A DNA stretch of 46,147 nucleotides, taken from contig JAJRSK010000060.1 in the NCBI GenBank assembly GCA_024278835.1, positions 1-46,147 of the forward strand. Reading direction: 5' to 3'. Shown here one piece after another: positions 1,359-41,680 of this stretch (its first letter is position 1; each line of letters begins with the position of its first letter). This stretch comes from Campylobacterales bacterium. Lineage in GTDB: Bacteria > Campylobacterota > Campylobacteria > Campylobacterales > QNZT01. A program made the position numbers and the translations under genes. Under the pieces are notes generated by a model. That model did not search any database and was not told the origin of the DNA. It saw only the letters and a list, made by a program, of their open reading frames with translations.

Positions 1359-2123
1359 CTACTTACGCACTACCGCCTCCACACGTAATCTGACATAATC
1401 CACAGACCATCCCTTACTATCATGATAGAGTATAGGACGCAATATCTCTACGCACTCTGCGACAAAAATGTCTCTTTGTTCTTTGGTTAAATCTTTTGTA
1501 AGACCATTTGTAAATATATCAAGCCAATTCTTGATGTCATCCATGGGTGTGGGTCTAGGGATAAGCGCTATGTATCTCACTTCAAATCCTTCTGACTCCA
1601 AAAGTGCTTTATACTCTCTGATGCTTGGGAAAAACCAAGGATTGTCAAATGTGCCAAATTCTGGATGTTTATCAAACACCTCTTGCATCGCGGAGACTAT
1701 CGCAAAAACATTTCCTTCGCCGCCAAATTCACAGACAAATCGTCCACCATTTTTCAGTGCTGAGGCGATTTGTTGTACTGCTGTTTTGGCATCTTTGACC
1801 CAGTGCAATGTTGCATTTGAGAAAACGGCATCAAAGCTATCATGATAGGGCAACTCTGTCACTGAAGCAACATAGGCTTCGATTCCCTTTTCTCTACAAG
1901 CTTCTATCATCTGGCTACTCATATCTACACCGATGACTTTTGCGCCACTTTTTTCTATCTCTACCGCAAGTGTGCCATCACCACAACCCGCGTCCAATAT
2001 CTTCTCACCATGTTGAGGTGCCAATAAATCCACCACAGGCAATGCCAACTCCGATACAAATCCTGTGTGCTTCTTATACGCTTTTGGGTTCCATCTGTTT
2101 GTTTCTTCTGTTTTCATAATCAT
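1359..2123 (-). CDS. class I SAM-dependent methyltransferase
   Basis: The 254-residue product has a Rossmann-type methyltransferase domain. Motif I is LDAGCGDGTL at about residues 43-52, an acidic residue ends strand 2 (GVDMSS), and motif IV is near AVFSNATLHWVKD. The arrangement, including the 'SNATLHW' stretch, is similar to trans-aconitate methyltransferase (Tam) and related small-molecule methyltransferases; the exact substrate cannot be read from the sequence. The start used is the first of two nearby ATGs (MIMKTEE). The gene stands alone: a small restriction-linked ORF lies downstream and a decayed region upstream. Two copies of the dispersed palindrome lie inside it (1417-1428 and 1837-1848), each read as Tyr-His-Asp, which suggests the gene is long resident. 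Confidence 0.8.
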   Translation of the reverse strand: MIMKTEETNRWNPKAYKKHTGFVSELALPVVDLLAPQHGEKILDAGCGDGTLAVEIEKSGAKVIGVDMSSQMIEACREKGIEAYVASVTELPYHDSFDAVFSNATLHWVKDAKTAVQQIASALKNGGRFVCEFGGEGNVFAIVSAMQEVFDKHPEFGTFDNPWFFPSIREYKALLESEGFEVRYIALIPRPTPMDDIKNWLDIFTNGLTKDLTKEQRDIFVAECVEILRPILYHDSKGWSVDYVRLRVEAVVRK

Positions 2124-2460
2124 CTTTCTTTTTTGTATATATAAAATTAGGATAGAACTATCCTACAGCTAGTTTTTGGGGGGGGGCGGTCATCCAATCA
2201 AGGAATCTATAAAATTATGGTAGTTTGCTTAGAGACTAAGCAGCAGGCAGAAGAGAAGGAGCGTGATATTTCTTGTGTTGAAATATGTGATATATGATGT
2301 TTTCATCTTTGCGCTCCTATTTTTTTTTTGCTGAAAGTGTAGTGGATTTATCTTGATTTGTCAAGGGAGTGGACTAAATCATATATCAAAATAGAAAATT
2401 TCTATCATGATACTCTTCTCAAAAAGAGGAGGGGAGTTGCTGTGTGTGATGAAAAATGAG
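2124..2460. other. non-coding stretch with homopolymer tracts
   Basis: I see no convincing gene here. It contains a run of nine G (2178-2186), a run of ten T (2320-2329) and one copy of the dispersed palindrome (2403-2412). The upstream region of the minus-strand methyltransferase must lie within it. Together with the decayed stretch to 2935 it forms the largest gene-poor interval of the window. Confidence 0.5.
2178..2186 (+). repeat. poly-G tract (G9)
   Basis: Nine consecutive G residues sit 55 bases upstream of the methyltransferase start codon. Such tracts are prone to slipped-strand change in Campylobacter and Helicobacter. This one is not within any gene I can recognise, so an effect would have to be on transcription. 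Confidence 0.6.
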
Positions 2461-2540
2461 AGGGTTTTGATTTCAGGGGAGGCGGTTATCTATGCCTCTA
2501 TGGAAGTGGAAGTGCCATAGCGTTTTTTGAAGTGCTCTTA

Positions 2541-2613
2541 AGCAGGCTTAAACGCTTCTCTACTCTTACAAAACTCTCCCATAAAACACTCCTTTTCGCA
2601 GAGAGGTTTTTGG
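2541..2613. repeat. direct repeat, left copy (nth 3' end)
   Basis: This 73-base segment matches 5216-5288 in the same orientation with three mismatches by hand alignment. The pair brackets the AraC remnant and the Septu-like genes. A shorter similar block (agggttttgattt) at 2461 and 5160 extends the homology outward imperfectly. Confidence 0.8.
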
Positions 2614-2660
2614 TGAATTCCTATTTTTGGTATAGGATAATCCCAAATGATGTGCCACGC
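2541..2660 (-). pseudogene. broken duplicate of the nth 3' end
   Basis: On the minus strand this stretch encodes the last residues of endonuclease III, including KPLCEKECFMGEFCKSREAF and the stop, almost identical to the intact nth at 5213. Positions 2541-2613 match 5216-5288 with three mismatches. Positions 2635-2660 match another internal nth segment (5399-5424), so roughly 85-110 bases in between are missing or scrambled. The fragment cannot make a functional enzyme. It marks either a past duplication of nth or the far end of an insertion next to nth. Confidence 0.8.
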
Positions 2661-2692
2661 CATGATTTTGGAGTTTTATTGATTAAAGCTAT

Positions 2693-2910: not shown

Positions 2911-2935
2911 TTTGATATTTGTAAGTTTTTTATCG

Positions 2936-3586
2936 TCAAGTAGTTTTTTTTAAATTTTCTTTTGTCATCCGATATGAAGTAATATACTCCACAGGTTCTG
3001 ATATGGGTAATTCTAATTCTATATTTTCTTTTAAATCTTTTATCTGTTTTGCTCGTTTAAATGCGTTACTATTAATACCTAGTATTTCAATCATCTCTTT
3101 AACTCTTGATTTTTCATCAGTAGTCAAATTGTTATTTGGTAAAAATAAATTCAATTCATCGTCAAATTCCAAATATTTATCTGGATTATACGCAGGATTA
3201 TCAGGTTTCAATATATTATCAACAGGCTTAGTACCTTTTACTCTGCAGTTTATATTACTATTTGCCATAAATAGGTTATCCCACAGGTAACCTTGTGTAC
3301 TTTTGAGCGTACAATCAAAATGTTCTAAATCACCATTAATCAAGTTCTGATTACTCAAATTACCAATATATTTGCCATCTTTCCACTTATCATCTGATAA
3401 TAACTCTCTATCACACAAAAGTTCTTCTGTATAGGCACATAAACCATTTTGACACTTAAGAAGACTCATTTTTATATCTTTAACATGGGTTTGACTACTT
3501 TTATATTCTGGATGATTATCGCCCAATCCCTCTTCCCAAGCTTTATATACAATAGAACGAATATATGACTTATCTATCTTCTGCAT
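2936..3586 (-). CDS. ptuB: HNH-type nuclease, PtuB/TIGR02646-like (Septu effector)
   Basis: The 216-residue protein shows the layout of the TIGR02646/PtuB HNH nucleases: a cysteine-containing turn (LCAYTEELLC, residues 49-58), then DLEHF (about 87-90) with the likely catalytic histidine, then YLWDNLFMANSNINC (about 100-114), and later a 'NPDKYLEFD' element like the family's 'NPxxHLxFD'. The second cysteine of the usual CAYC is threonine here, so metal binding may differ. The start codon overlaps the stop of the upstream ATPase (TAATG), so the pair is translationally coupled. In Septu systems the ATPase holds the nuclease until phage infection. Family assignment is from motif layout; no search was possible. 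Confidence 0.6.
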   Translation of the reverse strand: MQKIDKSYIRSIVYKAWEEGLGDNHPEYKSSQTHVKDIKMSLLKCQNGLCAYTEELLCDRELLSDDKWKDGKYIGNLSNQNLINGDLEHFDCTLKSTQGYLWDNLFMANSNINCRVKGTKPVDNILKPDNPAYNPDKYLEFDDELNLFLPNNNLTTDEKSRVKEMIEILGINSNAFKRAKQIKDLKENIELELPISEPVEYITSYRMTKENLKKTT

Positions 3587-5112
3587 TAGTTTTGCAATCC
3601 TAACAATGAAGAGAGCTTTTTAAACTGTTTTATCTTCTCTTTGGCGTCTTGTGAGGTTTTATCTTTCATCGCTTTTATCTCAGCCTTCAAAGTAGCATAT
3701 TCCATCAATTTTTTCTCTCGAAAGCTAAAGTTAGAATCTTCTTTGAGGTCAAAGACATCCGTAAGTATCCCCGTCCATGTAAGCATACGAGGATCTACAA
3801 TGTAGTTATCTACATGGTTGTCACCCTCGTAATACTTTTCTCTATAGATTTGATTGTTTTTATCAAACTTTAGCTCTACTACTTCCCATGGCTCAAAACT
3901 AGAAGCTATCAGTGGTGAATGTGTAGCCATGATGAGTTGATTGTTTTTACCTATATTCATATAGAGGTCTGTGAGTTGCCTTTGAATATTAGGATAAAAA
4001 GAGATCTCTGGTTCATCTATGAGAATGGTGCTGTCTTTTGGTTTGTGACTTTTAAGAGGTATAAATGTTGAAAGTAAATTTTTAGCTCCTGTACTTAGGT
4101 CATCATACTCTATGGTAGTATCATTGGATAAATCTCTAATAATCAACTCTTCATAACTTTGAGTATCTTCATCTATATGTAATTTTAGGTTAAACTTTTG
4201 GATAATCATATTTATATCATCAGCTATTTTTTGTAAGATATTTTCATTATCTTTTTCCCAAAGAGCCATATCTTTTTTATAATCATCTTTAGTATAATTA
4301 TCGTCATTTAATAATTTTGTAGATAATTTTTTTGTATATTTAGTTTTTTCTATTTCATAGCTGTCTATGCGTTCTTTTAATAATTTCCATGAATTGGTTT
4401 CTTCGTTAATATTTACTATATATTTATTGAGAAAATTTTTCTTTTTAAGATTTTTTAAAGTTTGGGGAATATCTTTTGTTTTGTAATATCTATCTTCAAT
4501 TTGATTCTTTTGTTGATTTAAAATATCTAATTCCATTTCATATTTAGTAAAATCCCCATTAGCTTTTATTAATAAATTGGTCATCGTATCTTCCAGAGAT
4601 AATAATCTTTCTTTATTATTTTGAGACATTTGTATAGATTCATTATGCAGTTTAATTTGTTTTTTTACATCTTTTACTGCACTAATAAAATAGTTTTTTT
4701 CATACTCAGTAAAAGTAAAATCGTCATAGAGAGGAAGTCTAGCTGTTGGCTTTTCTCCTATGGGTATAGGATTTAAAAGTTTACCATGAATCTTAGACTC
4801 ATCCATTGTAAATAATGTTTCTACAATTTTTTCATCAACTAATTTAAATTTAGTACGAATATACTTATCGTCCGTATCTTCTCCAACAAATTCAGAAAAA
4901 GGCAAATAATTATTTTTATCTTGTTCAGAAAAATCAACAGTAGATTTCTTAACTATATCAAGCAAGTTTGTCTTACCTGTGCCACTCTGACCGATAATAC
5001 AAATTTTATCTAAAGGTTTTCCTTCGTTAGGATGCCCTTTAGGATAGGTCAAATCCAATTCTAAATCTGAAAACTGTTTATAATTGCGTATATGTAAATA
5101 ACTTACTTTCAA
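3586..5112 (-). CDS. ptuA: AAA/ABC-type ATPase, PtuA-like (Septu sensor)
   Basis: This 508-residue protein starts with a recF/SMC-like strand (YLHIRNYKQFSDLELDL) and a Walker A GQSGTGKT at about 41-48. A long lysine- and asparagine-rich helical insertion spans roughly 130-300. The C-terminal half has a signature-like LSTGAKNLLST, a Walker B ending IDEPEIS, and a switch histidine in MATHSPLIA. This is the architecture of 'old-like' ABC ATPases used in defence, including PtuA and RloA. It is directly coupled to the HNH gene, the hallmark of Septu. The gene is more AT-rich than its neighbours and free of the dispersed palindrome, both consistent with transfer. Other ATPase-HNH defence pairs remain possible. 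Confidence 0.65.
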   Translation of the reverse strand: MKVSYLHIRNYKQFSDLELDLTYPKGHPNEGKPLDKICIIGQSGTGKTNLLDIVKKSTVDFSEQDKNNYLPFSEFVGEDTDDKYIRTKFKLVDEKIVETLFTMDESKIHGKLLNPIPIGEKPTARLPLYDDFTFTEYEKNYFISAVKDVKKQIKLHNESIQMSQNNKERLLSLEDTMTNLLIKANGDFTKYEMELDILNQQKNQIEDRYYKTKDIPQTLKNLKKKNFLNKYIVNINEETNSWKLLKERIDSYEIEKTKYTKKLSTKLLNDDNYTKDDYKKDMALWEKDNENILQKIADDINMIIQKFNLKLHIDEDTQSYEELIIRDLSNDTTIEYDDLSTGAKNLLSTFIPLKSHKPKDSTILIDEPEISFYPNIQRQLTDLYMNIGKNNQLIMATHSPLIASSFEPWEVVELKFDKNNQIYREKYYEGDNHVDNYIVDPRMLTWTGILTDVFDLKEDSNFSFREKKLMEYATLKAEIKAMKDKTSQDAKEKIKQFKKLSSLLGLQN

Positions 5113-5212
5113 CTTGATACCTTTATCTTTAAAAGATGATTAGAACTATTTTAGCATAAAGGGTTTTGATTTTAGGTGAAGCTACCATCAATACATGTAG
5201 CACTAGCCCATT

Positions 5213-5863
5213 TTAAGCGGGTTTAAACGCTTCTCTACTCTTACAAAACTCTCCCATAAAACACTCCTCTTCGCAGAGAGGTTTTTGGGATTTGCAGATA
5301 TACCTTCCAAAGAGTACCATCGCTTGATGGAGGATGTGTAAGTCGGTTTTAAATTTTTTTGTCAGTTGCTCTTCTGTTGCGATGGCGGTTTTGGCATCGG
5401 ATAATCCCAAGCGATGTGCCACGCGAAAGACATGGGTATCGACCGCCATGAGATTGGCTTGGGTGTACTCTATCATGATAACATGGGCGGTTTTTTGTCC
5501 TACACCCGCTAGCGTGACGAGCTCTTTTTCATCTAGGGGGATTTCTCCATCGAAATTTTCTATGACAGATTGTGCCATTTTGATGAGGTTTTTGGCTTTG
5601 TTGTTGAAAAAAGAGCAGGTGTTGATGAGGGCTTTGACATCATCAAGCTTGGCAAGGGCTAGTTCATGAACGGATGGATACTTTTCAAAAAGGGCAGGGG
5701 TGATGATGTTCACCCGCTTGTCGGTGCATTGGGCAGAGAGCAGTACGGCGATGAGAAGCTCATAAGCATTGTTGTAGTCAAGCTCTGTGACGGCATCATG
5801 ATAGCGCTCGATAAAGATTTTTTTTATCGCTTCTATCTCTTTTTTGGTCGCTTTTTTTGCCAA
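5213..5863 (-). CDS. nth: endonuclease III (base excision repair glycosylase/AP lyase)
   Basis: Nth removes oxidised pyrimidines from DNA and cuts the abasic site. The 216-residue product has the helix-hairpin-helix LAGVGQKTAHVI with the catalytic lysine, and VDTHVFRV with the catalytic aspartate. The iron-sulfur cysteines near the C-terminus are spaced CX6CX3CX5C (CKSQKPLCEEECFMGEFC); the common spacing is CX6CX2CX5C, so one extra residue is present. The start is TTG at 5863-5861, directly after the stop of the M14 gene and preceded by AAGGA, so the two are coupled. One dispersed palindrome is read as Ile-Met-Ile in HVIMIEY. Confidence 0.92.
   Translation of the reverse strand: MAKKATKKEIEAIKKIFIERYHDAVTELDYNNAYELLIAVLLSAQCTDKRVNIITPALFEKYPSVHELALAKLDDVKALINTCSFFNNKAKNLIKMAQSVIENFDGEIPLDEKELVTLAGVGQKTAHVIMIEYTQANLMAVDTHVFRVAHRLGLSDAKTAIATEEQLTKKFKTDLHILHQAMVLFGRYICKSQKPLCEEECFMGEFCKSREAFKPA
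5216..5288. repeat. direct repeat, right copy (within nth 3' end)
   Basis: This is the intact counterpart of 2541-2613, covering the final 25 codons of nth and the iron-sulfur cluster cysteines. Confidence 0.8.
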
Positions 5864-8556: not shown

Positions 8557-8606
8557 CTATCATGATAGTCTAGCAATGTGTAGCCTATATGTAACTATCA
8601 TGATAG
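8557..8606. repeat. paired copies of palindrome CTATCATGATAG
   Basis: Two perfect 12-base palindromes (8557-8568 and 8595-8606) lie in the 171-base gap between the ATP-grasp gene and the M14 gene. They could pair with each other or each form a small cruciform. The rest of the gap is T-rich with no ORF. Confidence 0.8.
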
Positions 8607-8620: not shown

Positions 8621-10036
8621 TTAAAGCTTTAACATCTCTTTAAATCTTCCCCATTGTTTTAAAAGCTTGCCAAGGGTTTTTTCTTTCATGCCATCTATCG
8701 TTAAAAGAACATTAGGGTTGTTTTCTATCACATCTACAAGACCCTCTTTTCCATGTGTTTCTAGCATAGCACTTGCTTTTTTGTTGCCGATGCCTTTGAC
8801 GGATGTAGTGAGGAAAGTATGTAACTCTTCTTCACTAAGGTTATTGACATTGAGACTTGACTCATCGTTATCTTTTGGTGCGTCTACTTCCATCGTTTTG
8901 ATACTTTTTAGTGGATATTTATCTTGATAATTCCACTTTTCACTTGGCCACTCTTCGTAGTTTCTATCTTCAGTATTGAGCATAGGATAACGGCTATCAA
9001 GTTCAAAGATATCTTCTGTGCCATCACTAGTTTCTCTTTTTTGATTCATGAAGTATTCACCATCAAAACTTTGTGAGTATTTTCCAAAAGTGATATAACG
9101 CATGGTTCTTAGCAGTGATGCGTCGATTTTACCTAGTTCTTCCCAGTTGTAAAGTGGGATATTGGGCTTTTTAAATCTTCCGTCGGAAAGCTTCCACATG
9201 ATGTACTGCCCAATCCAATCGCGGATATAAGGAAATGCAGCAAATGCCGTGGCACATTCAAGGATTCTATACTTTCCATCTTTACCCACCGCGACATCAC
9301 AAGCCCAGTATTCGGCGTTGGCAGCTTTAGAGACTTTCACAGCCAAATCAAGAAGTTCTTTAGGCACATCCATATAATCCATACTACCACCCTGTGAAGT
9401 GTTTGTGAGCCATTCCCCTTCAGGTGCGCGTCTCCAAAATGCACAGACAGGTTTATGACCGATGAGCATCACACGTACATCTGCTTCCATCGGGACGAAG
9501 TCTTGCATATACATAGGATGGTATTTTTTCACATCAAAGAGCTTTTTGGCTTCTGCTGCGGAGTCAGCTTTGTGGACAAAATATCCACCATAGTTAGAGG
9601 GACCATAACTCTTTTTGATGATTTTAGGATACTCAGTTTTTGCGACAAAGTCATAGCCTTTTTTTCTATCGTAGTAGATGTAGGTTTTTGGGATAGGGAT
9701 ATCATACTTCCAACAAAAACGGGTGACATTCTCTTTTGACTTGTTTGAAAACTGTGTGTCCATCGATGGGATAAACTTGACATGCGGTAACTCTCTGGCT
9801 ATCTCTCTAAATGTCTCATAAGCAGTCGCTGGGATATTTCCGATAAGCACATCAATCTTTTTACGCTTTACTTCTTTGATAAATCTCTCTTTATCATTTT
9901 TCCAGTGATAGGTGACTGTCTCTATCTTGTCTGGCCAGCCACGAAAATTTGAGTGATCAAAAAATCGTAGTACATAATCTAAATATAGAAAGCCTAATTT
10001 TGGTAGTTTTTTCTTGTTTTTCTTCTTTTTGCCCAT
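8621..10036 (-). CDS. ATP-grasp family protein with C-terminal helix-hairpin-helix
   Basis: This 471-residue protein begins with a very basic tail (MGKKKKNKKK). An ATP-grasp core spans about 90-290, with a lysine-bearing nucleotide segment (YPKIIKKSYGPSNYGG) and a late acidic motif CDVAVGKDGKYRILECATAF. In active ATP-grasp ligases the last motif is E-x-N; here it is E-C-A, so a metal-binding asparagine is missing. A linker rich in acidic and aromatic residues follows (about 300-410), then two hairpin motifs (VKGIGNKKASAML and IDGMKEKTLGKLL) like DNA-binding HhH pairs. It starts 3 bases after the stop of the other ATP-grasp gene with AAGGA before the ATG, so the two form an operon. It may be a non-catalytic or nucleic-acid-targeting partner. 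Confidence 0.7.
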   Translation of the reverse strand: MGKKKKNKKKLPKLGFLYLDYVLRFFDHSNFRGWPDKIETVTYHWKNDKERFIKEVKRKKIDVLIGNIPATAYETFREIARELPHVKFIPSMDTQFSNKSKENVTRFCWKYDIPIPKTYIYYDRKKGYDFVAKTEYPKIIKKSYGPSNYGGYFVHKADSAAEAKKLFDVKKYHPMYMQDFVPMEADVRVMLIGHKPVCAFWRRAPEGEWLTNTSQGGSMDYMDVPKELLDLAVKVSKAANAEYWACDVAVGKDGKYRILECATAFAAFPYIRDWIGQYIMWKLSDGRFKKPNIPLYNWEELGKIDASLLRTMRYITFGKYSQSFDGEYFMNQKRETSDGTEDIFELDSRYPMLNTEDRNYEEWPSEKWNYQDKYPLKSIKTMEVDAPKDNDESSLNVNNLSEEELHTFLTTSVKGIGNKKASAMLETHGKEGLVDVIENNPNVLLTIDGMKEKTLGKLLKQWGRFKEMLKL

Positions 10037-11027: not shown

Positions 11028-12134
11028 ATGGGCAAAGCGTATGATTTTTCAGAGTTAGCGTCGATTATCAACATAAATTCTTATACAAAGAACAAAAATG
11101 GGGTGGATACCAACGCTAAAATCTTTGCTGGATGGATGGAAGAATTGGACTTTGAGACAATTGTTTATGAGCGTGAAGAGATAGGCAATCATGTTTTATT
11201 TAAATCCAAGCAAAAAGAGGGGAAAAAGTTGTTGCTTTTAGGGCATCTTGATACGGTTTTTCCTGCGCACTCTTTTGAAAAGTTTAGTGAAGATGAGGCG
11301 TGGATATATGGCCCTGGGGTTTGTGATATGAAGGGGGGAAACTTTGTAGCTTTGGAGTCGCTTAGAAATGTGAAAAAGAGTCATCATGATATACACAATA
11401 TCGACTTTTTATTGGTGAGTGATGAAGAGAGTGGCAGTGATGATTCCAAGGCGCTTACCAAAGCATTGGCGGTGGATTATGACTATTGTTTAGTATTTGA
11501 AGCGGCAGGCAAAGAGGGTGAAGTGGTCATCGGACGAAAAGGTGTGGGAACATTTTTTATCGACATCAAAGGAAAAGCAGCGCACGCGGGCAATGCGTAT
11601 GTCAATGGCACCAATGCCAATTTAGAAGCCGCGCATAAACTCATCGCGCTTACCGCCTTAACAGACCTAGAGAAAGGCACTACGGTCAATGTTGGAAAGA
11701 TGGAAGGAGGTATCGGGGCAAATACTATCTCACCCTATGCCAAACTTGTAGTGGAACTGCGCTACACCAACACGGATGAGATAGATAGGGTGCTTAATGC
11801 CTTTGATGCTATCGTACAAAAATCATTTGTGGAGAATACGACAGCCATACTCAGTGGTGGGATACAGCGTGATGTGATTTAAAGTTCAGCAAAACAGTTA
11901 GCATTTCTCGCCAAACTTGAAGAGGTCTCAGGGGTGAAGCTCCCGACAGAAAAACGCGGAGGGGTGAGTGATGCCAATATCGTAGCAAGCCAAGGGGTCA
12001 TCACGCTAGATGGTTTTGGACCTTTTGGTGATGGTGACCATACCATCAATGAACGTGCATCCAGGAGAAGCTATCATGATAGGATAGAGATGGTGACAAA
12101 GATATTTTCTGCTTTTTTAGAAGGGAGAATTTAG
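11028..12134 (+). pseudogene. M20 family metallopeptidase (CPG2-like) interrupted by an in-frame TAA
   Basis: The frame from ATG 11028 (AAAGGG upstream) encodes an M20/carboxypeptidase G2-like enzyme: metal-ligand motif LLGHLDTVFP, metal-bridging GPGVCDMKGG, catalytic and metal-binding DEESGS, and FEAAGKEGEVVIGRKG. After 'IQRDVI' a TAA at 11880-11882 stops translation, then the same frame continues with SSAKQLAFLAKLEEVSG and the family's C-terminal GGVSDAN and FGDGDHTINE (final metal ligand region) to a TAG at 12134. So this is a single in-frame nonsense codon, not a frameshift. A truncated product would lack the last ligand. The next gene begins at the adjacent base. It may be a pseudogene, a read-through case or a sequence error. 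Confidence 0.75.
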
Positions 12135-13364
12135 ATGTCGTTTTCTACGCTTTCACCTGCCTTGCAAAAGGCAATTTCCAAAGAGGGGTTTAGCAAGCCA
12201 ACCCCTATCCAAGAAAAAGTCATCCCTGCTATCATGATAGGCGATGATATCATGGCGCAGGCACAGACGGGTTCTGGAAAAAGTGCGGGTTTTATACTCC
12301 CAATACTTGAAAATCTTTCTCAAAATGAGAAAGAAGGCAAGGCAAAGATACGGGTGTTGGTGTTGGCGCCTACACGGGAATTGACACTGCAAGTGGCAGA
12401 AGATTTTGAAAAGTTTTCCCTATTTTTAGCCAAGAAACTAAAGGTAGTGGCGGTCATCGGAGGGGAGAGCATAGGAGATCAACTCTATGATATCCAACAG
12501 GGATGCGACATCGTCGTGGCGACAACGGGGCGGCTTTTGGATATCTTTTCTAAAAAGCAGATGAATCTCTCTAGGTTAGAATTTTTTGTGCTTGATGAAG
12601 CGGATAAGATGTTGGATTTGGGCTTTGAAAAAGAGCTTGAAGAGATTTTAAAAGAGATTCCCGCGTTACGGCAAAATCTTCTTTTTTCCGCGACGTATCC
12701 ACCCAAGATGCTGGAGATTGCCAAGAAGATAACAGACAATCCTACATCTATCATGATAGAAGAAGAGTGGGCTGCAGTAGCGACTATATCACAGCGTGCT
12801 ATCGCGGTCAATCGGGAAAATAGAGGTCCGTTGCTTCGTCATCTATGGAAAGCCAATAAGTGGGATTTGGTCTTGGTTTTTATGGCAAATAAACGGGCCG
12901 CGGATAACATCGCCGTGAAGTTTCGAAAGTATGGTTTACCCGCAGAGTCTTTTCATGGTGACCTTGACCAAGAGGAGCGAAATCGTACCTTACAAGAGTT
13001 TAAAGATAAAAAGATTCGTATATTATTTTCAACGGATTTGGCAGCAAGGGGACTGCATATAGATGCGATTTCTTGTGTGATAAATTATGATTTGCCACGC
13101 TCTCCTTCTGATTATATCCACCGTATCGGTCGAACAGGTAGGGCGGGGAAGTCGGGTGTGGCTATATCGTTTATCGGGCTGGAAGATGAGGTGCATTTTA
13201 AGTTGATTGAAAAGCGTAGTGATGTGCACTTGAAACGTGAGCAGATAGAAGGATTTGCGCGTGTGGGAGAACTTCCCAAGAAAGAGAAAGGCAAAGCCCC
13301 AGTGAAGGGCAAAAGAAAAAGTAAAAAAGACAAGTTGAGAGAAGCAGCAAGTAAGAAAAGTTGA
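12135..13364 (+). CDS. DEAD-box RNA helicase (RhlE/DbpA-like)
   Basis: The 409-residue protein has the full helicase set: Q motif (FSKPTPIQ), Walker A AQTGSGKS, PTREL, TTGRLLD, DEAD in LDEADKML, SAT, then ARGLHIDAI and HRIGRTGRAG. The C-terminal 40 residues are strongly basic (KGKRKSKKDKL), typical of RNA-binding tails of RhlE-type enzymes. It would unwind short RNA duplexes, often in ribosome assembly or cold adaptation. Its ATG directly follows the M20 stop. Two palindromes are read as Ile-Met-Ile (AIMIGDD and SIMIEEE), at positions that are not conserved motifs. Confidence 0.92.
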   Translation: MSFSTLSPALQKAISKEGFSKPTPIQEKVIPAIMIGDDIMAQAQTGSGKSAGFILPILENLSQNEKEGKAKIRVLVLAPTRELTLQVAEDFEKFSLFLAKKLKVVAVIGGESIGDQLYDIQQGCDIVVATTGRLLDIFSKKQMNLSRLEFFVLDEADKMLDLGFEKELEEILKEIPALRQNLLFSATYPPKMLEIAKKITDNPTSIMIEEEWAAVATISQRAIAVNRENRGPLLRHLWKANKWDLVLVFMANKRAADNIAVKFRKYGLPAESFHGDLDQEERNRTLQEFKDKKIRILFSTDLAARGLHIDAISCVINYDLPRSPSDYIHRIGRTGRAGKSGVAISFIGLEDEVHFKLIEKRSDVHLKREQIEGFARVGELPKKEKGKAPVKGKRKSKKDKLREAASKKS

Positions 13365-15454: not shown

Positions 15455-15466
15455 CTATCATGATAG
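15455..15466. repeat. palindrome CTATCATGATAG in a convergent gap
   Basis: One perfect copy fills the 22-base gap between the stops of the GT-like gene (plus) and nadD-rsfS (minus), a position where a bidirectional terminator would be expected. There is no flanking T run. Confidence 0.7.
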
Positions 15467-17441: not shown

Positions 17442-17443
17442 GT

Positions 17444-19356: not shown

Positions 19357-19386
19357 TAGGAGGATTATCCTTATCTATCATGATAG
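19348..19386. repeat. paired copies of palindrome CTATCATGATAG at a convergent gene end
   Basis: Perfect copies at 19348-19359 and 19375-19386 are separated by 15 bases, between tpiA (plus) and the minus-strand gene that ends at 19393. Each copy can fold alone and the two can pair with one another into a larger hairpin, so they may act as a two-way terminator. Confidence 0.75.
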
Positions 19387-23651: not shown

Positions 23652-23686
23652 TATCATGATAGGCTTAATGTTAGCTATCATGATAG
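23652..23686. repeat. paired TATCATGATA palindromes
   Basis: Copies at 23652-23661 and 23675-23686 lie in the gap upstream of nusA and downstream of the chemoreceptor gene. They are 13 bases apart and can pair with each other. Confidence 0.75.
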
Positions 23687-28394: not shown

Positions 28395-29346
28395 TTCTGT
28401 AAGTAAAAGATTAACAAGGCAGTATATCGCTGTCATCGTTGAAGAGAACAAATGTAAAATAAGACAAAAAATTGTTAAAAATAGCGATCTTTTACATCTG
28501 GAGGATTATAGTTTTGACATTAGTTCAAAAGAGCAGTTAGGGGAGAAGATTACTACTTTTCTCAATAACTTACAAGAAGAGTATGATAATACTTATATCG
28601 CACTATTTCTTAATACTCTAGGACAAGGTATCATCCCTGTATGTGATGAAAATATTCTCGAAAAGTATCATATAGACAGAAAAAGTATCAAAACTATTTG
28701 CGTGGAAGAGCGTTTTATGATGTATGCTACGCTGATAGATGTTAAATGGGCAGATAAACTATTTCAAGACGTTGGTTTAGATTTTGTATTTTCACCTTTT
28801 TTAATTTTGGATTATTTTATTCAAAAAGAAGAAGTTGTTACAGGACAGGTGACGCTTAATATCTTAAATACGAGCAATGCACTTACTATCATGATAAGTA
28901 AAGATTCACGTCTACTCTATGGCTCCTTTTTCAATGTGGCAAAAGATGAAAATCTCTTATATACGGATTACTCAGAAGGGGAAGAACTTGATGATGATGA
29001 GAGTTTTGATGAAATCGACTTGGATGAGGATGATGTAGAGATGGATGAGATAGGTAATATCACTGATAATAGTAACTTTGTTAACAATGTGTTAAAAGAA
29101 CAAGCCAATCTTGGTGCCCAAGATGAGAGAATTATAAAATACCTTTCTGCTGCCTTAAGAGAGTTTTATTCGGATAACCTTTATGAAAGTGAATTTATCA
29201 ACCATGCAAAAATTTATGATGGGGCAGGGATTCATGAGGGTGTGATGGCTTATATAGAAAATGAGTTATTACTTGATACGAGCGCAGTGAATATCTCTGT
29301 AAGAGATGCTATCATCAATCTTTCAGAAAAAGAAGTTTTAGCCTAA
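28381..29346 (+). CDS. PilM/GspL-like actin-fold protein with acidic insert
   Basis: The 321-residue protein (ATG 28381, AGGAG five bases upstream) is soluble and probably cytoplasmic. Alternating strands and helices such as QYIAVIVEENKCKIR and TYIALFLN, and its place before PilN- and PilO-like genes, suggest PilM, the ATPase-fold protein that docks the pilus platform. Between about residues 205 and 232 lies a strongly acidic run (ELDDDESFDEIDLDEDDVE), not usual for PilM. It overlaps xerH by 14 bases and is joined by TAATG to the next gene. Identification rests on context plus weak fold signs. Confidence 0.5.
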   Translation: MGLFSSVSKRLTRQYIAVIVEENKCKIRQKIVKNSDLLHLEDYSFDISSKEQLGEKITTFLNNLQEEYDNTYIALFLNTLGQGIIPVCDENILEKYHIDRKSIKTICVEERFMMYATLIDVKWADKLFQDVGLDFVFSPFLILDYFIQKEEVVTGQVTLNILNTSNALTIMISKDSRLLYGSFFNVAKDENLLYTDYSEGEELDDDESFDEIDLDEDDVEMDEIGNITDNSNFVNNVLKEQANLGAQDERIIKYLSAALREFYSDNLYESEFINHAKIYDGAGIHEGVMAYIENELLLDTSAVNISVRDAIINLSEKEVLA

Positions 29347-31494: not shown

Positions 31495-32070
31495 ATGAGA
31501 TGTCTTCTTTGTAAAAAATTCTCTTTTTCGCATATTTGTACGAACTGTCAAGGTACATTTTTAAAACCTACACTCTCCTCACGTTTTTTAACTGATGATT
31601 TTAAAGTCTTTTCTTTTTATCGCTACAGTGATATCGCAGCACTACTTAAAACTAAACATACCCATATAGGGGCAGCTATTTATAAGATATTAGCATATAA
31701 TGCGATGAAAAAATTTGCAGATAATTTTTCTTTTGAACAGAAGGTATATGCAATTGGCATAGATGACCATAGTAAGCATGGATATGCCCATACAGCTATT
31801 TTAACTAAAGCATTAAAGTCTGATATAATTACCCCTCTTTTTGCTACATTACGTGCGAGCAATAACGTGCATTATGCTAGCAAATCTTTATCGTATCGAT
31901 TGGCACATAAAAGAGGTTTCATTTATCATGATAAGAGCCCAAAAGATATCATATTAGTGGATGATATTATCACCACCGGAACGACTATTTTAGAAGCGCT
32001 AAAAGCGATAGAAAAAGCCCAATCAACCCCTATATTTGCGCTAACTTTGGCTGATGCGAGGGACTTATAA
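31495..32070 (+). CDS. comF: ComF-family phosphoribosyltransferase-like protein
   Basis: The 191-residue protein (ATG 31495) has an N-terminal zinc-ribbon-like set of cysteines (MRCLLCKKF...ICTNC) and a C-terminal phosphoribosyltransferase fold with ILVDDIITTGTT, the PRPP-binding loop. ComF proteins take part in DNA uptake in naturally competent bacteria. A TTG start at 31477 is possible but lies in the terminator. It sits directly before gyrA, an order I recall from Campylobacter. A palindrome (31924) is read as Tyr-His-Asp. Confidence 0.88.
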   Translation: MRCLLCKKFSFSHICTNCQGTFLKPTLSSRFLTDDFKVFSFYRYSDIAALLKTKHTHIGAAIYKILAYNAMKKFADNFSFEQKVYAIGIDDHSKHGYAHTAILTKALKSDIITPLFATLRASNNVHYASKSLSYRLAHKRGFIYHDKSPKDIILVDDIITTGTTILEALKAIEKAQSTPIFALTLADARDL

Positions 32071-34589: not shown

Positions 34590-34987
34590 TGGATAGGGAG
34601 TTTTTCCTTTTTCCATGCATTGATGCCACCTTTTAGGTTATATACGCTAAACCCTGCGTTTGAAAGTGTTCGGGAGGCAGAGATACTTCTGCTTCCACTT
34701 CTGCAATAGACTAAAATTTTATTATTTTTATAGGCTGATAACTTTTTGATATTTTTTGCAAGTGTTTGTAGTGGTATATGGATAGCTCCTTCAATCATCC
34801 CGTCTGTTTTTAGCTCTTCTTTAGTTCTGACATCGACAAGGGTTGTGTTGTTATCATGATAGAAACTGTAGGCTTGTTGGGCATCTACATTTTTAAAATT
34901 CACCATGATTATCCCTTTTTGATAGAGGATAAATGTAAGCGTTGCTGCAATGAGTACCCAGTAGAACATATTGTTTGTTAATTTCAT
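34586..34987 (-). CDS. membrane-anchored rhodanese-like protein
   Basis: The 133-residue protein (start MKLTNNMFYW at 34987) has an N-terminal membrane helix (FYWVLIAATLTFILYQKG) and a single rhodanese domain with the active cysteine in VYCRSGSRS and the conserved LVDVRTKEEL. It would handle sulfane sulfur, probably facing the periplasm. It overlaps the gyrA end by four bases on the other strand. Its upstream region is shared with the divergent MBL-fold gene. Confidence 0.85.
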   Translation of the reverse strand: MKLTNNMFYWVLIAATLTFILYQKGIIMVNFKNVDAQQAYSFYHDNNTTLVDVRTKEELKTDGMIEGAIHIPLQTLAKNIKKLSAYKNNKILVYCRSGSRSISASRTLSNAGFSVYNLKGGINAWKKEKLPIH

Positions 34988-35051
34988 GATAAGCCTTTTG
35001 TAGTAACAAATACTACACACTTTATCGTTATACTTTCCTAAAAGGGATGTT

Positions 35052-35915: not shown

Positions 35916-35951
35916 TATTTCGGGTATAATCATATAAAAAAAGGAAGAAAT

Positions 35952-36305: not shown

Positions 36306-36312
36306 ATACAGA

Positions 36313-37428
36313 ATGAAAGATGCTCTGTTTAACGTGGAAAAAGTCTCTAAAATTGCGCGTGAGATTAGTACTGTGTATAAAGAGTTTGAAGAAGAAGCAT
36401 TTAAAAAAGAGGTTTTAGAGAAGTTTCCTCTTCTTGAATTAAAAGAGCGTATTTATCACATACGGGATAGCTTGGCTACGTTTTTGCCTGATGATTTTCA
36501 AGAGGCAACAGAGATACTTTTAAAGGCTTTACCACCAGAACTAGATTCTACAAAAAGCGATGATGATTTTGGTGATTTTATCTATGCCTCTTATAGTGAA
36601 TTTGTACGTGCTTTTGGTTGTCATGATAAGTATCTTGATTTTTCACTTTTGGCATTGGCTGAGATGACTAAACGTTTTTCTGTAGAGTTTGCTATACGGG
36701 ATTTTATTAACTATTTTCCCCAAGAGACATATGCCATGCTAGAGGAATGTGCAAGGTCAAAAAATTATCATCAAAGACGCTTAGCATCTGAGGGCTTACG
36801 GCTTAAATTGCCTTGGGCAAATAAGATAGAGATTGATTATCATGATAATATCCCCATACTAGACAATCTCTATCATGATAAGTGCCGTTTTGTGACACGT
36901 TCAGTCGCAAATCACCTCAATGACATTTCAAAAATAGATGCGAAATTGGTACTTAATACTTTAGATAGATGGCAAAAATCAGGGAAACAAGAGAGTGCAG
37001 AGATGGCGTACATCATCGCTCATGCCCTACGCACATTGGTTAAAAAGGGAGATGAAAAGACATTAGAATTTTTGGGATTTTCTACGGAGCCTTTGATACA
37101 AGTACATCATTTTAATCTGCTCAATGATGTTATCATGATAGGGGAGAGTTTGGTTTTTTCATGTGAGATAGCGTCTCAAAGAGAGGAACGCTTAGTGATA
37201 GATTATATTCTCTATTTTAGGACTAAGGCGGGTAAATTAAACCCCAAAGTGCATAAGTTAAAGAAGCTTATCATGAAAGAAGGAGAATCTACAAAAATAG
37301 AGAAAAAACATCTCTTTAAAGCAGGGATGACAACACGAAAATTTTATGCAGGTGAGCATAAAATAGCCCTGCAAATCAATGGAAAAATAGTGGAGACATT
37401 GACATTTAATCTAAATGTTGTAGAATAA
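36313..37428 (+). CDS. DNA alkylation repair (AlkD-like) HEAT-repeat protein
   Basis: This 371-residue all-helical protein has HEAT-like repeats with AlkD-family features: RFVTRSVANHLNDISK and LASEGLRLKLPW, the usual region where an alkylated base is engaged. The last 110 residues (about 260-371) form a separate beta-rich domain (VHHFNLLNDVIMIGESLVFSCEI). AlkD enzymes remove positively charged alkylated bases. The activity of this variant is inferred. Three palindromes lie inside it (36838, 36871, 37131), the densest coding cluster in the window. Confidence 0.8.
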   Translation: MKDALFNVEKVSKIAREISTVYKEFEEEAFKKEVLEKFPLLELKERIYHIRDSLATFLPDDFQEATEILLKALPPELDSTKSDDDFGDFIYASYSEFVRAFGCHDKYLDFSLLALAEMTKRFSVEFAIRDFINYFPQETYAMLEECARSKNYHQRRLASEGLRLKLPWANKIEIDYHDNIPILDNLYHDKCRFVTRSVANHLNDISKIDAKLVLNTLDRWQKSGKQESAEMAYIIAHALRTLVKKGDEKTLEFLGFSTEPLIQVHHFNLLNDVIMIGESLVFSCEIASQREERLVIDYILYFRTKAGKLNPKVHKLKKLIMKEGESTKIEKKHLFKAGMTTRKFYAGEHKIALQINGKIVETLTFNLNVVE

Positions 37429-37444
37429 AATAAAAAGGTTTTTA

Positions 37445-38437
37445 GTGAAAAAAATTGTTTTTATTTTATCATTTTTTATGCTCTCTTTAGACGCTAAAGA
37501 TTATACACTTCATGTGCAAACACAAGCGTTTATCACGATGATGGTGGAGGAGTATAATTTTAAACGCGCTTACCTTGAAAAGCTTTTTAGCTCGGTAGAA
37601 AAACAGACAAGACCTTTGGCGATAGTGACTAGAAAACCTTCCAAGAAACCAAGCTTGGCTTTGCAGAAAAAATATCCTCGTTATGGTGCATGGGATAGGT
37701 ATGTGAAGCATAAAGTGACAGCCAAGCGTGTTAGACAAGGCAAAGTATTTTTAAGAAAATATCGCCGTGTTTTTGCGAAAGCAGAAAAGAGATATGGCGT
37801 GCCAAAAGAGTATATAGCAGCAATCATTGGTATCGAGAGTGTTTATGGTGGCAATGTAGGGAAATATCCTGTTTTTGATACTTTAACAACACTTGCATTT
37901 GAGAAAAATAGACGAAATAAATTTTATAAAAATCAGCTCAAAAAGTTTATCGTGCTCTCTTTTAGGAATAGATTTAATCCCAAAAATGTCAAAGGCTCTT
38001 ATGCTGGGGCGATAGGTCTGTGTCAATTTATGCCGAGTAATTATGAGCCTTATGGAGTGGATTTTAATGGTGATGGTCGGGTCACACTTCAAAATCCTGT
38101 TGATGCTATCGCTTCGGTGGCAAACTACTTGAAACAAAATGGCTGGAGAAGAGGAGAACCCGTAGCTACGAGAGTCTCTTATGCTGGAACTAGGTTTAAA
38201 AAGTATAAAACAGGCTATGATAGAACCTATAATAGGGCTGCATTGGTTGGCATCGCACCCAAGCAAAAATGGGTCTATCATGATAAGGTGCGTCTCATCA
38301 AACTTAATCGTGCAGAGTATGATGAGCTCTGGTATGGAGCGAAAAACTTTTATGTGCTTACGCGCTATAACCACAGTGCTTACTATGCGATGAGTGTGCA
38401 CCAACTTGCTAAGAAGCTTAAAAATTCACTATCATGA
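37445..38437 (+). CDS. mltB: lytic murein transglycosylase B
   Basis: The 330-residue enzyme (start GTG 37445, AAAGG upstream) has a signal peptide and the MltB catalytic glutamate in IIGIESVYGG, then SYAGAIGLCQFMPSNY and the Ca-binding-like DFNGDGRV. It cuts the glycan strands of peptidoglycan from the periplasm. No lipobox is visible, so it may be soluble. The stop TGA lies in a palindrome copy (38429-38440) and overlaps the ATG of the next gene. Confidence 0.9.
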   Translation: MKKIVFILSFFMLSLDAKDYTLHVQTQAFITMMVEEYNFKRAYLEKLFSSVEKQTRPLAIVTRKPSKKPSLALQKKYPRYGAWDRYVKHKVTAKRVRQGKVFLRKYRRVFAKAEKRYGVPKEYIAAIIGIESVYGGNVGKYPVFDTLTTLAFEKNRRNKFYKNQLKKFIVLSFRNRFNPKNVKGSYAGAIGLCQFMPSNYEPYGVDFNGDGRVTLQNPVDAIASVANYLKQNGWRRGEPVATRVSYAGTRFKKYKTGYDRTYNRAALVGIAPKQKWVYHDKVRLIKLNRAEYDELWYGAKNFYVLTRYNHSAYYAMSVHQLAKKLKNSLS

Positions 38438-39018
38438 TAGAAGAAGATAATTTTGCAGAAGCCTTTGAAAACTTAGATTTTTCAGGGCAAGAAATCATTG
38501 CAAAAGAGTTTGAAGATTGTACCTTTAGCAAGTGTGATTTTTCGCATGTCTCTTTTAAAAAGTGTAAGTTTGACTATTGTCACTTCTCCCATTGCAATCT
38601 CTCTTTGATGCAAGTGTTGGATAGCCAATTTTCAGGGGTGATTTTTGAAGATTGTAAAATCATCGGGGTGGATTGGACGAAGGCATCTTGGTCTGCGCTG
38701 ACCCAACGCGCACCAAAGTTTAAAAGAAGTGTTTTAAATGACTCCTCGTTTTGGGGACTTAGACTAGAAAGCATCATGATAAGTGGCTGTGAAGCGAGAG
38801 ATGTGGACTTTCGTGAAGCCAATCTCAAAGAGGCAGACCTGCAAGATACAGACTTTACTAGGGCACTTTTTAGAAATACAAATCTTACAGAAGCCAACTT
38901 TACACATGCTAGTGGCTTTGACATCGATGTGCGTGTCAATGATATCAAGGAAGCAAAATTTAGCCGTTATGAAGCGTGGCGTTTACTGGGTGGACTAGGA
39001 ATAGTATTGGTGGATTAA
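38434..39018 (+). CDS. pentapeptide repeat protein, Qnr-like
   Basis: The 194-residue protein consists of pentapeptide repeats (A[D/N]LxX), for example FEDCTFSKCDFSHVSF and AAREANLKEADLQDTDF-type runs, forming a right-handed beta-helix. The C-terminal helix ...YEAWRLLGGLGIVLVD resembles the dimer module of Qnr proteins (...YQASLLMERLGIAVIG), which mimic DNA and protect gyrase and topoisomerase IV from quinolones. The N-terminal residues also have Qnr-like spacing. Most such chromosomal genes are of unknown role, so Qnr function is only a suggestion. Start and mltB stop share a palindrome. Confidence 0.75.
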   Translation: MIEEDNFAEAFENLDFSGQEIIAKEFEDCTFSKCDFSHVSFKKCKFDYCHFSHCNLSLMQVLDSQFSGVIFEDCKIIGVDWTKASWSALTQRAPKFKRSVLNDSSFWGLRLESIMISGCEARDVDFREANLKEADLQDTDFTRALFRNTNLTEANFTHASGFDIDVRVNDIKEAKFSRYEAWRLLGGLGIVLVD

Positions 39019-39062
39019 GCATAAGTTTTGCATCTTATGTTAAAATAGCGAAAAAAGGAGTT

Positions 39063-39260: not shown

Positions 39261-39313
39261 AGTTAACAATTTAAAATCACTACATAAAACAATATTATTA
39301 CAAGGATATACCT

Positions 39314-41581
39314 ATGTCAAAAAATTACATAGTAGGCTTCCCGCGTATCGGTGAGCAGAGAGAATTAAAAAAAGTATTAGAGAGTTTTTGGGCGAAAAAA
39401 AGTTCATTCAACGAAGTAGAAGAGCTTGCAAAAGCATTAAGAAAACGCCATTGGGAGTATCAAAAAGAGGCAGGGATAAGCTATATCTCTAGTAACGACT
39501 TTTCACTCTATGATACGATGTTAGATACCTCTATCATGATAGGGGCAATTCCTGCGCGTTTTAGGGATTTGGAGGGAGAGAATCGCTACTTTGCTATGGC
39601 ACGAGGTGATGAGAAGAGAGTGGCGATGCAGATGACAAAATGGTTTAACACAAACTACCATTATATCGTGCCTGAACTCTCTTTGGAAGATAGTTATAGC
39701 TTAGATGCCACAAAGGTACTCTCAGAGTATAAAGAGGCAAAAGATTTGGGGATAAAAACCAAAATCAATCTCATAGGCCCTATCACATATCTAGGGCTTT
39801 CAAAGCGTATTGATGATGGGGATACTTATGAATTGATAGGAAAAATTTTACCAATTTATGAGGCACTATTGGCTGAGATTTCTGAGCTTGATGATGAGAT
39901 TGTGGTGCAGTTTGATGAGCCTATCTTTGTTACGGGGTGTGAGGCAAAAGTCTTAAGCCTTATCAAACCTACATACGAGAAGTTAGCAGGGGTAAGTGAG
40001 AAGATAAAGATAGCAGTTGTTAGCTATTTTGAACACTCTGTCGAAGCGACAAAAGTTTTTGTTCATACGCCTATATGGGCATTGGGGCTTGATTTTGTTT
40101 ATGCAGAAGAGAATAAAGAATCTTTGAAAATCATCCAAGAGAGTGGAAAAGTACTCATCGCTGGTGTCGTAGATGGACGAAATATCTGGAAAAATGATAT
40201 GCAAAAAACACTTCTTTTGTTGGAAGATATTGCTAAAGTTGTCGATAGAGAGGCTATCATGATAGGGAGTTCTTGTTCACTCTTGCATACACCTTTTACT
40301 TTAAAGTATGAGCAGAAGCTAGAGAGTGAGATAAAGAATTGGCTTAGTTTTGCGCTTGAAAAATTAGAAGAGGTCTCTTTGCTAGAGAAACTATTTTTCA
40401 CCCCTGAAGATACCCAAGCACAAAAGGCATTAAAAGAGAATATCCAAGCCAATAAAAGCCGTAAAAATTCGACACTCATTCATGATAAAAAGGTACAAGA
40501 GCGTGTTAATTCTCTAAAAAAGTTTGAGCGAGAAGATAGTTTTGACTCACGCATCAAAGTTCAAAGAGAGGTGCTGGGATATCAAGATTTGGCAACGACA
40601 ACGATAGGCTCTTTTCCTCAGACACAAGAGGTGCGAGCTGCTAGAAAATCTTTTAAAGCAGGGGAGATTTCAAAAGAGATATATGAAAATGAGATGAAAA
40701 AGTACATAGAGGAGTGTGTGCGTTTTCAAGAGGAGTGTGGCTTGGAGGTGCTAGTACACGGTGAGCCAGAGAGAAATGATATGGTGGAGTATTTTGGAGA
40801 GCAGTTAAAGGGGTATGGTTTTAGTGAAAATGGCTGGGTACAAAGCTATGGAAGCCGCTGTGTGAAGCCGCCTTTTATCTATGGGGATATATCGCGTCCA
40901 GAAGCGATGACTGTGGAGTGGATTAGATACGCACAAAGCAAAACAGAGAAGATTATGAAAGGGATGTTGACTGGGCCAGTTACGATACTTAATTGGTCTT
41001 TTGTGCGTGATGATATGCCTCGTGATGCAGTCTCTAAGCAGATAGCTGTTGCTCTTAGTGATGAGATAGCTGATTTGCAAGAAGCAGGGATAAAAATCAT
41101 CCAAGTAGATGAAGCTGCATTTAAAGAGGGTTATCCACTTCGAGAGGAGAAGATAGCTAGCTATGAAAAGTGGGCGGTGCGTGATTTTAAGATAGCCGTA
41201 AGCAGTGCAAAAAAAGAGACACAAATTCACACACATATGTGTTATAGCGTCTTTAATGATATCATCGAAACGATTGAAAATATGGACGCAGATGTCATCT
41301 CTATCGAAACAGCACGAAGTGGCAATAGACTACTTAAAATCTTTAAAGAGACAGGTTACAAGCAAGAGGTTGGTCCTGGTGTTTATGATATACATTCGCC
41401 TCGTGTACCGAGTGTGGAGGAGATAGTAAAACAGATAAGATTGCTTCTTGAAGTATTGCCAAAAGAGCAGTTGTGGATTAATCCTGATTGTGGTCTTAAA
41501 ACCAGAAAATGGGAAGAGGTCAAACCAAGTCTTGAAAATATGGTCAAGGCGGTGGAGATAGTACGGGCTGAATTTTCTTAG
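39314..41581 (+). CDS. metE: cobalamin-independent methionine synthase
   Basis: MetE transfers a methyl group from methyl-tetrahydrofolate polyglutamate to homocysteine. The 755-residue enzyme has the duplicated barrel layout: folate-binding N-terminal half (GFPRIGEQRELKK) and the catalytic C-terminal half with VHGEPERNDMVEYFGE, zinc-binding HTHMCYS, and the later cysteine in NPDCGLK. AAGGATATACCT precedes the ATG. It is monocistronic with its own terminator. Two palindromes (39531, 40254) are read as Ile-Met-Ile. Confidence 0.96.
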   Translation: MSKNYIVGFPRIGEQRELKKVLESFWAKKSSFNEVEELAKALRKRHWEYQKEAGISYISSNDFSLYDTMLDTSIMIGAIPARFRDLEGENRYFAMARGDEKRVAMQMTKWFNTNYHYIVPELSLEDSYSLDATKVLSEYKEAKDLGIKTKINLIGPITYLGLSKRIDDGDTYELIGKILPIYEALLAEISELDDEIVVQFDEPIFVTGCEAKVLSLIKPTYEKLAGVSEKIKIAVVSYFEHSVEATKVFVHTPIWALGLDFVYAEENKESLKIIQESGKVLIAGVVDGRNIWKNDMQKTLLLLEDIAKVVDREAIMIGSSCSLLHTPFTLKYEQKLESEIKNWLSFALEKLEEVSLLEKLFFTPEDTQAQKALKENIQANKSRKNSTLIHDKKVQERVNSLKKFEREDSFDSRIKVQREVLGYQDLATTTIGSFPQTQEVRAARKSFKAGEISKEIYENEMKKYIEECVRFQEECGLEVLVHGEPERNDMVEYFGEQLKGYGFSENGWVQSYGSRCVKPPFIYGDISRPEAMTVEWIRYAQSKTEKIMKGMLTGPVTILNWSFVRDDMPRDAVSKQIAVALSDEIADLQEAGIKIIQVDEAAFKEGYPLREEKIASYEKWAVRDFKIAVSSAKKETQIHTHMCYSVFNDIIETIENMDADVISIETARSGNRLLKIFKETGYKQEVGPGVYDIHSPRVPSVEEIVKQIRLLLEVLPKEQLWINPDCGLKTRKWEEVKPSLENMVKAVEIVRAEFS

Positions 41582-41622
41582 TAAAGAAGCGGTTTATCGA
41601 TTATGATAAACCGCTTCTTTAC
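41581..41622 (+). terminator. long perfect hairpin after metE
   Basis: An 18-base perfect stem (positions 41581-41598 with 41605-41622) has a six-base loop GATTAT and starts at the last base of the metE stop codon. A palindrome copy follows at 41624. The right arm contains TTCTTTAC rather than a clean T run. Confidence 0.75.
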
Positions 41623-41680
41623 GTATCATGATAAGATATAGGTATAGATTTTGCTTTACAAGTGAGAAAAAGGAGAGTTG

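Follow-up and report, generated by a model that had tools for sequence, protein, structure and literature searches.

The stretch of DNA analysed here, a 46,147-nucleotide contig of a Campylobacterales bacterium (JAJRSK010000060.1; hereafter the window), is dotted with a short palindromic word, TATCATGATA. The window contains 31 exact copies between positions 1418 and 41633 (100 dinucleotide shuffles gave a mean of 0.07 and a maximum of 1), in agreement with the original prediction of about 31 copies where fewer than one would be expected; the range then given, 1417–41633, was right at its end, but the first copy begins one base later, at 1418. The copies, to which no strand is assigned, start with those at 1418–1427, 1838–1847 and 2403–2412, the last of these ahead of a site-free stretch with a PtuA-like ATPase gene, and resume at 5471–5480 within a gene for an HhH-GPD repair protein (5213–5863). 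Two copies at 8558–8567 and 8596–8605 form a pair that could fold into a single stem. They are followed by copies at 12072–12081, 12230–12239, 12749–12758, 13523–13532, 13610–13619 and 14836–14845, by one at 15456–15465 that lies between two convergent open reading frames (ORFs; 13409–15448 and 15471–16331), and by one at 15831–15840. At 18642–18651 the TGA of the word ends one ORF (17414–18649) and its ATG starts the next (18646–19356), and the same arrangement is found at 38430–38439 for the ORFs at 37445–38437 and 38434–39018. After a copy at 18793–18802, a second pair (19349–19358 and 19376–19385) is located where convergent ORFs meet, and a third is found at 23652–23661 and 23676–23685, a single stem again being possible in both; when the three pairs were folded they gave stems with z values of −4.7 to −6.7. 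The remaining copies lie at 28887–28896, 31924–31933, 34852–34861, 36838–36847 and 36871–36880 (an intragenic pair), 37131–37140, 38276–38285, 39532–39541 and 40255–40264 (both within a metE-like gene, 39314–41581) and 41624–41633.

The word extends through the whole source genome (G000), in which 1549 copies were counted in 2,507,854 bases (618 per megabase, Mb), compared with 7 copies of its reversed control. In a sample of this genome composed of the window and 40 further stretches (765,734 bases), 479 copies were found where an order-3 Markov model predicted 12.8 and an order-5 model 97.9, both models having been trained on the same motif-laden DNA in which the word was counted. A congener (G001; the genus of the two is designated g1) contains 1009 copies. 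The count proposed with the original prediction as a check is therefore far above the Markov expectation, and the copies are not confined to the window; the opposite outcome in either respect had been named as evidence against it. The full word is longer than ten bases and close to CTATCATGATAG. The next base outward in the G000 sample is C with a frequency of 0.60 and T with a frequency of 0.25, and the 12-mer itself occurs 171 times (0.68 expected at order 3 and 8.5 at order 5). The two half-sites combine their outer bases approximately independently (CC 171, CT 151 and TT 27), the palindrome is perfect over 10 bases and in most cases over 12, and no base preference is visible in the samples more than three bases out from the core TCATGA. 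Enrichment of words that deviate at one base is found mainly at the outermost two positions, where it is four- to fivefold in G000 (CATCATGATA, 85 against 17.2 expected; TGTCATGATA, 35 against 7.6), with smaller rises for the inner C to T and A to T changes (TATTATGATA, 22 against 8.2; TATCTTGATA, 34 against 19.6). In G001, TGTCATGATA is likewise enriched (56 against 7.4), and so is GATCATGATA (32 against 7.1), which is not enriched in G000 (3 against 2.9); this contrast possibly reflects a small difference within the genus. No account of the word was found in the open-licence literature, judged by title among the matches listed; the one match whose title is not unrelated concerns restriction in Ureaplasma. 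A pattern scan yielded 18 viral stretches that contain 2–4 copies each, with inconsistent flanks, from which nothing follows about a viral use of the word.

The G000 and G001 samples were compared through 156 protein pairs that are reciprocal best matches, with 72% identity over 141,363 aligned bases. The G000 genes in these pairs contain 59 sites, 3 of them in alignment gaps; of the other 56, 25 are identical in G001, compared with 6.8% of 92,210 control 10-mers (binomial p 4e-15 if sites are independent). In the reverse direction 25 of 49 sites are identical and 4 of 53 fall in gaps. Where the amino acid is the same in both genomes, the codon is kept more often inside sites than elsewhere for ATA (22/28 against 281/689), ATC (25/30 against 809/1361) and CAT (10/10 against 304/417); TAT and GAT have no surplus from the G000 side and a surplus from the G001 side. 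Pooled over codons, 75 were retained against 55.1 expected (z 4.6), and 83 against 60.2 in the reverse direction (z 5.2). This comparison of orthologous sites with synonymous change had been suggested earlier, and both identity and codon retention exceed expectation. Amino acids at G000 sites are retained less often than elsewhere for Tyr (0.67 against 0.85) and His (0.53 against 0.72) and equally often for Ile, and retention in the reverse direction is about equal, with Ile higher (0.85 against 0.69–0.77). The sites are located in somewhat less conserved parts of genes (flanking identity of 0.59–0.70 against 0.76). Among the G000 sites that are not identical in the congener, 29 of 31 differ in the protein, and private sites align base for base, without gaps, with other codons, so the sites were made by substitutions able to cost amino acids. 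The earlier proposal that selection or a copying process acts on the DNA stands in its first part, in that something does act on the DNA word; copying or insertion of a short element, by contrast, is rejected because of the ungapped alignment and the small number of sites in gaps (3/59 and 4/53). Taken as a whole, the existence of a word maintained genome-wide is well supported.

Gene calls in the samples came from a simple script and not from a standard gene finder. By these calls, the 479 sites of the G000 sample comprise 352 inside genes, 79 in intergenic DNA and 48 on edges or junctions. As 91% of the sample was called coding, the intergenic site density is approximately 2.4 times the intragenic one. 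The 352 intragenic sites are read either as Ile-Met-Ile (217) or as Tyr-His-Asp (135), the two frames originally described, and none is in frame with the TGA. The ATG of a site serves as a called start 42 times in the G000 sample and 33 times in that of G001, often behind an AGGAG-like string, and the TGA serves as a called stop 24 and 17 times, respectively. A Shine-Dalgarno-like string accompanies 45% of the site-ATG starts and 59% of other starts in G000 (52% and 57% in G001), so part of these starts, though not every one, is probably real. The spacing, first noted as irregular, comes close to random placement (counts in 5-kb bins have a dispersion of 1.22 in G000 and of 0.82 in G001), apart from a surplus of pairs closer than 40 bases (22 against a null of 11.9 in G000, 13 against 5.8 in G001). 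Convergent spacers contain the most sites (0.31 per spacer), followed by divergent (0.19) and tandem (0.13) ones. The longest site-free stretch of the sample (14.4 kb) is occupied by csy1-4, cas3 and cas1 of a type I-F CRISPR-Cas operon (contig C45 of G000, approximately 54–69 kb; L133 14316–20000 and L134 1–8669), the second (12.2 kb; guanine plus cytosine content, GC, 31.5%) by surface-sugar genes such as neuB, and the fifth (8.0 kb), the last of the three that were annotated, includes genes for ATP synthase. Judging by their kind, the two longest stretches may have been acquired. The GC of 5-kb bins correlates with site number (Spearman 0.25 and 0.26), which is compatible with AT-rich acquired DNA without sites but is not proof of it.

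Within the window, no copies are present between 2413 and 5470, as had been stated for what was termed a Septu-like island. The AAA ATPase gene in this 3-kb stretch (3586–5112, minus strand) resembles PtuA weakly, with a score far below the curated cut-off, and the neighboring ORF (2936–3586) has no Pfam match. Two further genes on the minus strand encode a RimK-like protein of the ATP-grasp type whose C-terminal helix-hairpin-helix region resembles ComEA and RecD2 repeats, an unusual pairing (8621–10036), and a protein that matches the Death-on-curing (Fic/Doc-type) family slightly above the cut-off (123–1121).

The host is placed with Campylobacter-like bacteria by its relatives and by an FlgR-type protein encoded in the window, which matches the Campylobacter FlgR model below the curated cut-off. 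Apart from G000 and G001, the 20 other members of the family that were searched contain 3–88 copies of TATCATGATA. Among 119 genomes, more than 100 copies are found only in these two and in G056 (166 copies), a member of another family in which the next highest count among 44 genomes is 39. When the outer bases are added (YTATCATGATAR), the copies counted over 398 genomes of the order number 1161 and 761 in g1, 64 in G056, 49 in G006, 33 in G021 and at most 26 in the rest, the maximum in the sister genus (g4) being 33. Counts of the hexamer TCATGA cover 199 genomes of the order and 21 further ones, with densities based on rounded genome sizes. The hexamer exceeds 800 per Mb in eight genomes (G000, G001, G006, G008, G011, G016, G039 and G056), and the next density is approximately 580. 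The iterated core is TCATGA, and this core is shared while the flanks are lineage-specific, two features that go beyond the original prediction. In the G000 and G001 samples, A and then T stand outside the core, and G056 has a milder A and T preference. In three species of g4 (G008, G011 and G016, with 43, 61 and 67 sites), T is found at position −1 with a frequency of 0.56–0.58 (0.31–0.34 at order 3) and C or T at position −2; the samples of G006, G039 and G004 were too small for flanks to be read. The word YTTCATGAAR, first seen in these samples and then counted in the 199 genomes, occurs 416, 567 and 480 times in G008, G011 and G016, where its reversed control occurs 14, 27 and 22 times. 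Elsewhere there are 111 copies in G039, 85 in G018, 75 in G006 and at most 62 in others, including 35 in G000 and 24 in G001. Site positions shared with G000 across genera are few or absent (g4, 8 of 51 with 8.5% for control hexamers; G006, 7 of 31 with 9.5%; G056, 3 of 49 with 9.0%), so the sites have accumulated mostly separately. Members of one genus also differ in the core word, G056 being high in contrast to nine congeners, and G008, G011 and G016 in contrast to G004, G014, G018 and G020. In G007 the reversed control of TCATGA, AGTACT, reaches 1738 copies over the whole genome of 2.0 Mb, far above other family members, and is perhaps another iterated word.

G000 and G001 each encode one adenine methyltransferase of the D12 class, located in G000 on contig C77, outside the window. 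In both genomes the gene adjoins a SelO-like gene (by profile match in G000 and by eye in G001). The methyltransferase search covered PF01555 and PF02086, and PF01555 gave no match above cut-off in either genome. No nuclease gene is found beside the methyltransferase among the ORFs of the two loci (L041 and L042; names assigned by eye except for SelO), and neither a solved structure similar in sequence nor a specific NCBIfam model was found for the enzyme. A weak PF01555 match in the window, considered as a decayed DNA methyltransferase, was discarded, as the gene (1359–2123) scores as an ordinary S-adenosylmethionine (SAM) methyltransferase (Methyltransf_11). Some match to the D12 enzyme is present in 86 of 199 genomes, many of the matches being distant. 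Of 80 homologue loci, 41 were examined, and 8 of these contain 0–3 CATG where composition predicts 33–50, the others being near or above expectation. Ten neighboring ORFs were scanned; two, at the CATG-poor loci L090 and L124, match ICEA, which we take to be an NlaIII-like nuclease of CATG, one is an acyl-CoA dehydrogenase and seven have no match. On this evidence from homologues, the target of the methyltransferase is probably CATG, and we infer that the word is methylated there. CATG is not depleted in the source genome (2838 copies against 2590 from base composition and 3312 from a second-order estimate), which disfavors active CATG restriction.

A solitary D12 methyltransferase is found in seven of the eight genomes with TCATGA above 800 per Mb. 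Among 22 genomes of the family, 6 of the 11 that have a close homologue exceed this density (one homologue is in two pieces and another is cut by a contig end), and none of the 11 that lack one does (Mann-Whitney p 0.008, uncorrected for kinship). Many carriers have low counts, so the methyltransferase is not sufficient and is rejected as the sole cause; it looks permissive rather than causal. A ComEC-type gene (PF03772) is present in 20 of 23 genomes tested, including G000 and G001, in high- and low-count genomes alike. PF03772 has no match in G008, G014 and G039, of which G008 and G039 are high-count, incomplete assemblies.

The data fit a methylated, lineage-specific self tag best. With a probability of roughly 40%, the word is a mark of self DNA that is methylated at CATG and probably acts as an uptake signal. 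The scattered copies would mark the chromosome as self DNA, the solitary methyltransferase would methylate CATG inside the core, and the flanks (CTA..TAG in g1 and YT..AR in the three g4 species) would provide lineage specificity. The natural-transformation apparatus would then read the methylated word, an uptake step that we infer. If tagged DNA is taken up and recombined more often than other DNA, point mutations that complete a site would spread by molecular drive, which would act in genes and gaps alike, would spare highly constrained genes and would not yet have reached acquired islands. This reading draws on the copy number of the word relative to its reversed control, the identity of 25 of 56 sites between congeners, the origin of sites by ungapped substitution, and the TCATGA core with differing flanks. 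It draws also on the solitary methyltransferase of seven high-count genomes, the CATG-poor homologue loci and their ICEA neighbors, the intergenic excess, the CRISPR-Cas and surface-sugar genes in the longest site-free stretches, the ComEC-type gene, and a precedent in Campylobacter jejuni, in which, according to the excerpted text of PMC8468864, uptake is limited to DNA that carries a CtsM-methylated motif. A more specific proposal, that an ordinary CATG methyltransferase provides the mark and that this mark and the flanks are read together as a methylation-gated palindromic signal for self-recognition and uptake, with dialects in Campylobacterota that restrict exchange to kin, can be put forward only tentatively.

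Several observations weigh against the self tag. In the genus of G056, 7 of 10 members have the methyltransferase and only G056 is high; G039 is high without a methyltransferase match; and many low-count genomes encode the enzyme. Few site positions recur from one genus to another. The ComEC-type gene is equally common in low-count genomes and is unmatched in high-count G008 and G039. The known DNA uptake sequences (DUS) and uptake signal sequences (USS) are not palindromes, according to passages of PMC1939737. Finally, a symmetric 12-mer would equally suit a dimeric binding protein.

Such a protein, abundant and involved in nucleoid or chromosome organization, is the alternative that survives best, although it is unlikely. 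Selection would keep many copies of its site for coating of the chromosome, and flanks would differ because the recognition surface of the protein had changed. The dyad symmetry over 12 bases with nearly independent outer bases, the near-random placement across genes and gaps and the conservation of the word between congeners are all in line with this explanation; however, no such protein was found, in an analysis that made no search aimed at one, and the explanation leaves unexplained the core shared with a CATG methyltransferase, and changed amino acids would be a high price for coating alone. Somewhat less probable still is a functionless by-product like that proposed for HIP1 (highly iterated palindrome 1) of cyanobacteria, in which mismatch repair or a methyl-directed process near CATG would favor mutations that complete the word. 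As far as the excerpts of PMC4390886 go, HIP1 is likewise a palindrome around a methyltransferase target, single-base deviants are reported to lie chiefly at the outer two positions, as do CATCATGATA and TGTCATGATA here, and the model proposed is of the same kind. However, certain inner deviants are raised here as well (TATTATGATA and TATCTTGATA), most genomes with the methyltransferase lack the word, and flanks differ in the presence of the same kind of methyltransferase, whereas alternative HIPs have different ones (PMC4390886, same excerpts). Spread of the word by insertion or copying of a short mobile element is hardly credible. The confinement of high copy number to one genus in the order survey would suit it, but few sites lie in alignment gaps, private sites are matched base for base by other codons, and the base preferences visible in the samples end at the third base out from the core.

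The likeness to HIP1 and to uptake sequences that had been pointed out at the start holds in several of the respects tested, namely iteration and outer deviants for the former and a core with flank dialects for the latter. The excerpts of PMC4390886 describe HIP1 and the alternative HIPs as palindromes iterated genome-wide, both within genes and between them, that enclose the target of a methyltransferase with no nuclease next to it, with deviants chiefly at outer positions and with other palindromes in their place in some relatives; all of this has parallels here, a probable one in the case of the methyltransferase target. By the same source, HIPs have a GC of 75–100% (50% in one accessory case) and reach 1000–2000 per Mb, whereas the 10-mer described here has a GC of 20% (2 of 10 bases) and reaches 618 per Mb. 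HIPs belong to cyanobacteria and the present host to Campylobacterota, and the variants found here have one core and one kind of methyltransferase in common. The DUS dialects of Neisseriaceae also combine a common core with lineage-specific flanks, in the excerpt of PMC3630211, and DUS and USS in general number many hundreds to thousands of copies, with an intergenic excess and some inverted pairs (PMC1939737, in part). Those words, however, are not palindromes in that excerpt, while the present one is perfect, and their uptake function has been demonstrated, whereas that of the present word is putative; the excerpts of PMC3630211 and PMC1939737 state no link to a methylated core. CATG restriction-modification systems with an ICEA-type nuclease (PF05315) have the methyltransferase in common with the source genome, and homologues stand beside ICEA genes in L090 and L124; here, in contrast, no nuclease gene adjoins the methyltransferase among the ORFs of L041 and L042, and CATG is not depleted. 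The word of Campylobacter jejuni CtsM is RAATTY. This system belongs to the same bacterial order, by relatedness to the survey set, and it couples a short word to a dedicated methylating enzyme, as is probably the case here; it differs in the word, printed as RATTY in the excerpt of PMC8468864, and in that its function has been shown. In form the word described here resembles HIP1, and in distribution it resembles uptake-sequence dialects. Tests of defining traits set it apart from both: the word is not GC-rich and cyanobacterial like the HIPs, and it is a palindrome, unlike uptake sequences. It is therefore a member of neither family within the general class of highly iterated words.

The reason for which certain genomes become filled with one palindrome was, for HIP1, still termed a mystery in 2015 (PMC4390886, as excerpted). 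The present case lies outside cyanobacteria, in a group where congeners differ in the core word, and where the core is common to sister genera whose flanks differ. The cause can therefore be separated from ancestry, and a gene for the reader or driver should differ between high- and low-count congeners. In summary, the pattern looks like a lineage-specific DNA tag of putative function. Should the word be an uptake tag, it would create barriers to the exchange of genes. Methylation-gated reading, if true, would unite two modes in a single system, the methylation-dependent one of Campylobacter and the sequence-dependent one of Neisseria, and would supply a cause, open to testing, for the high iteration of a palindrome.

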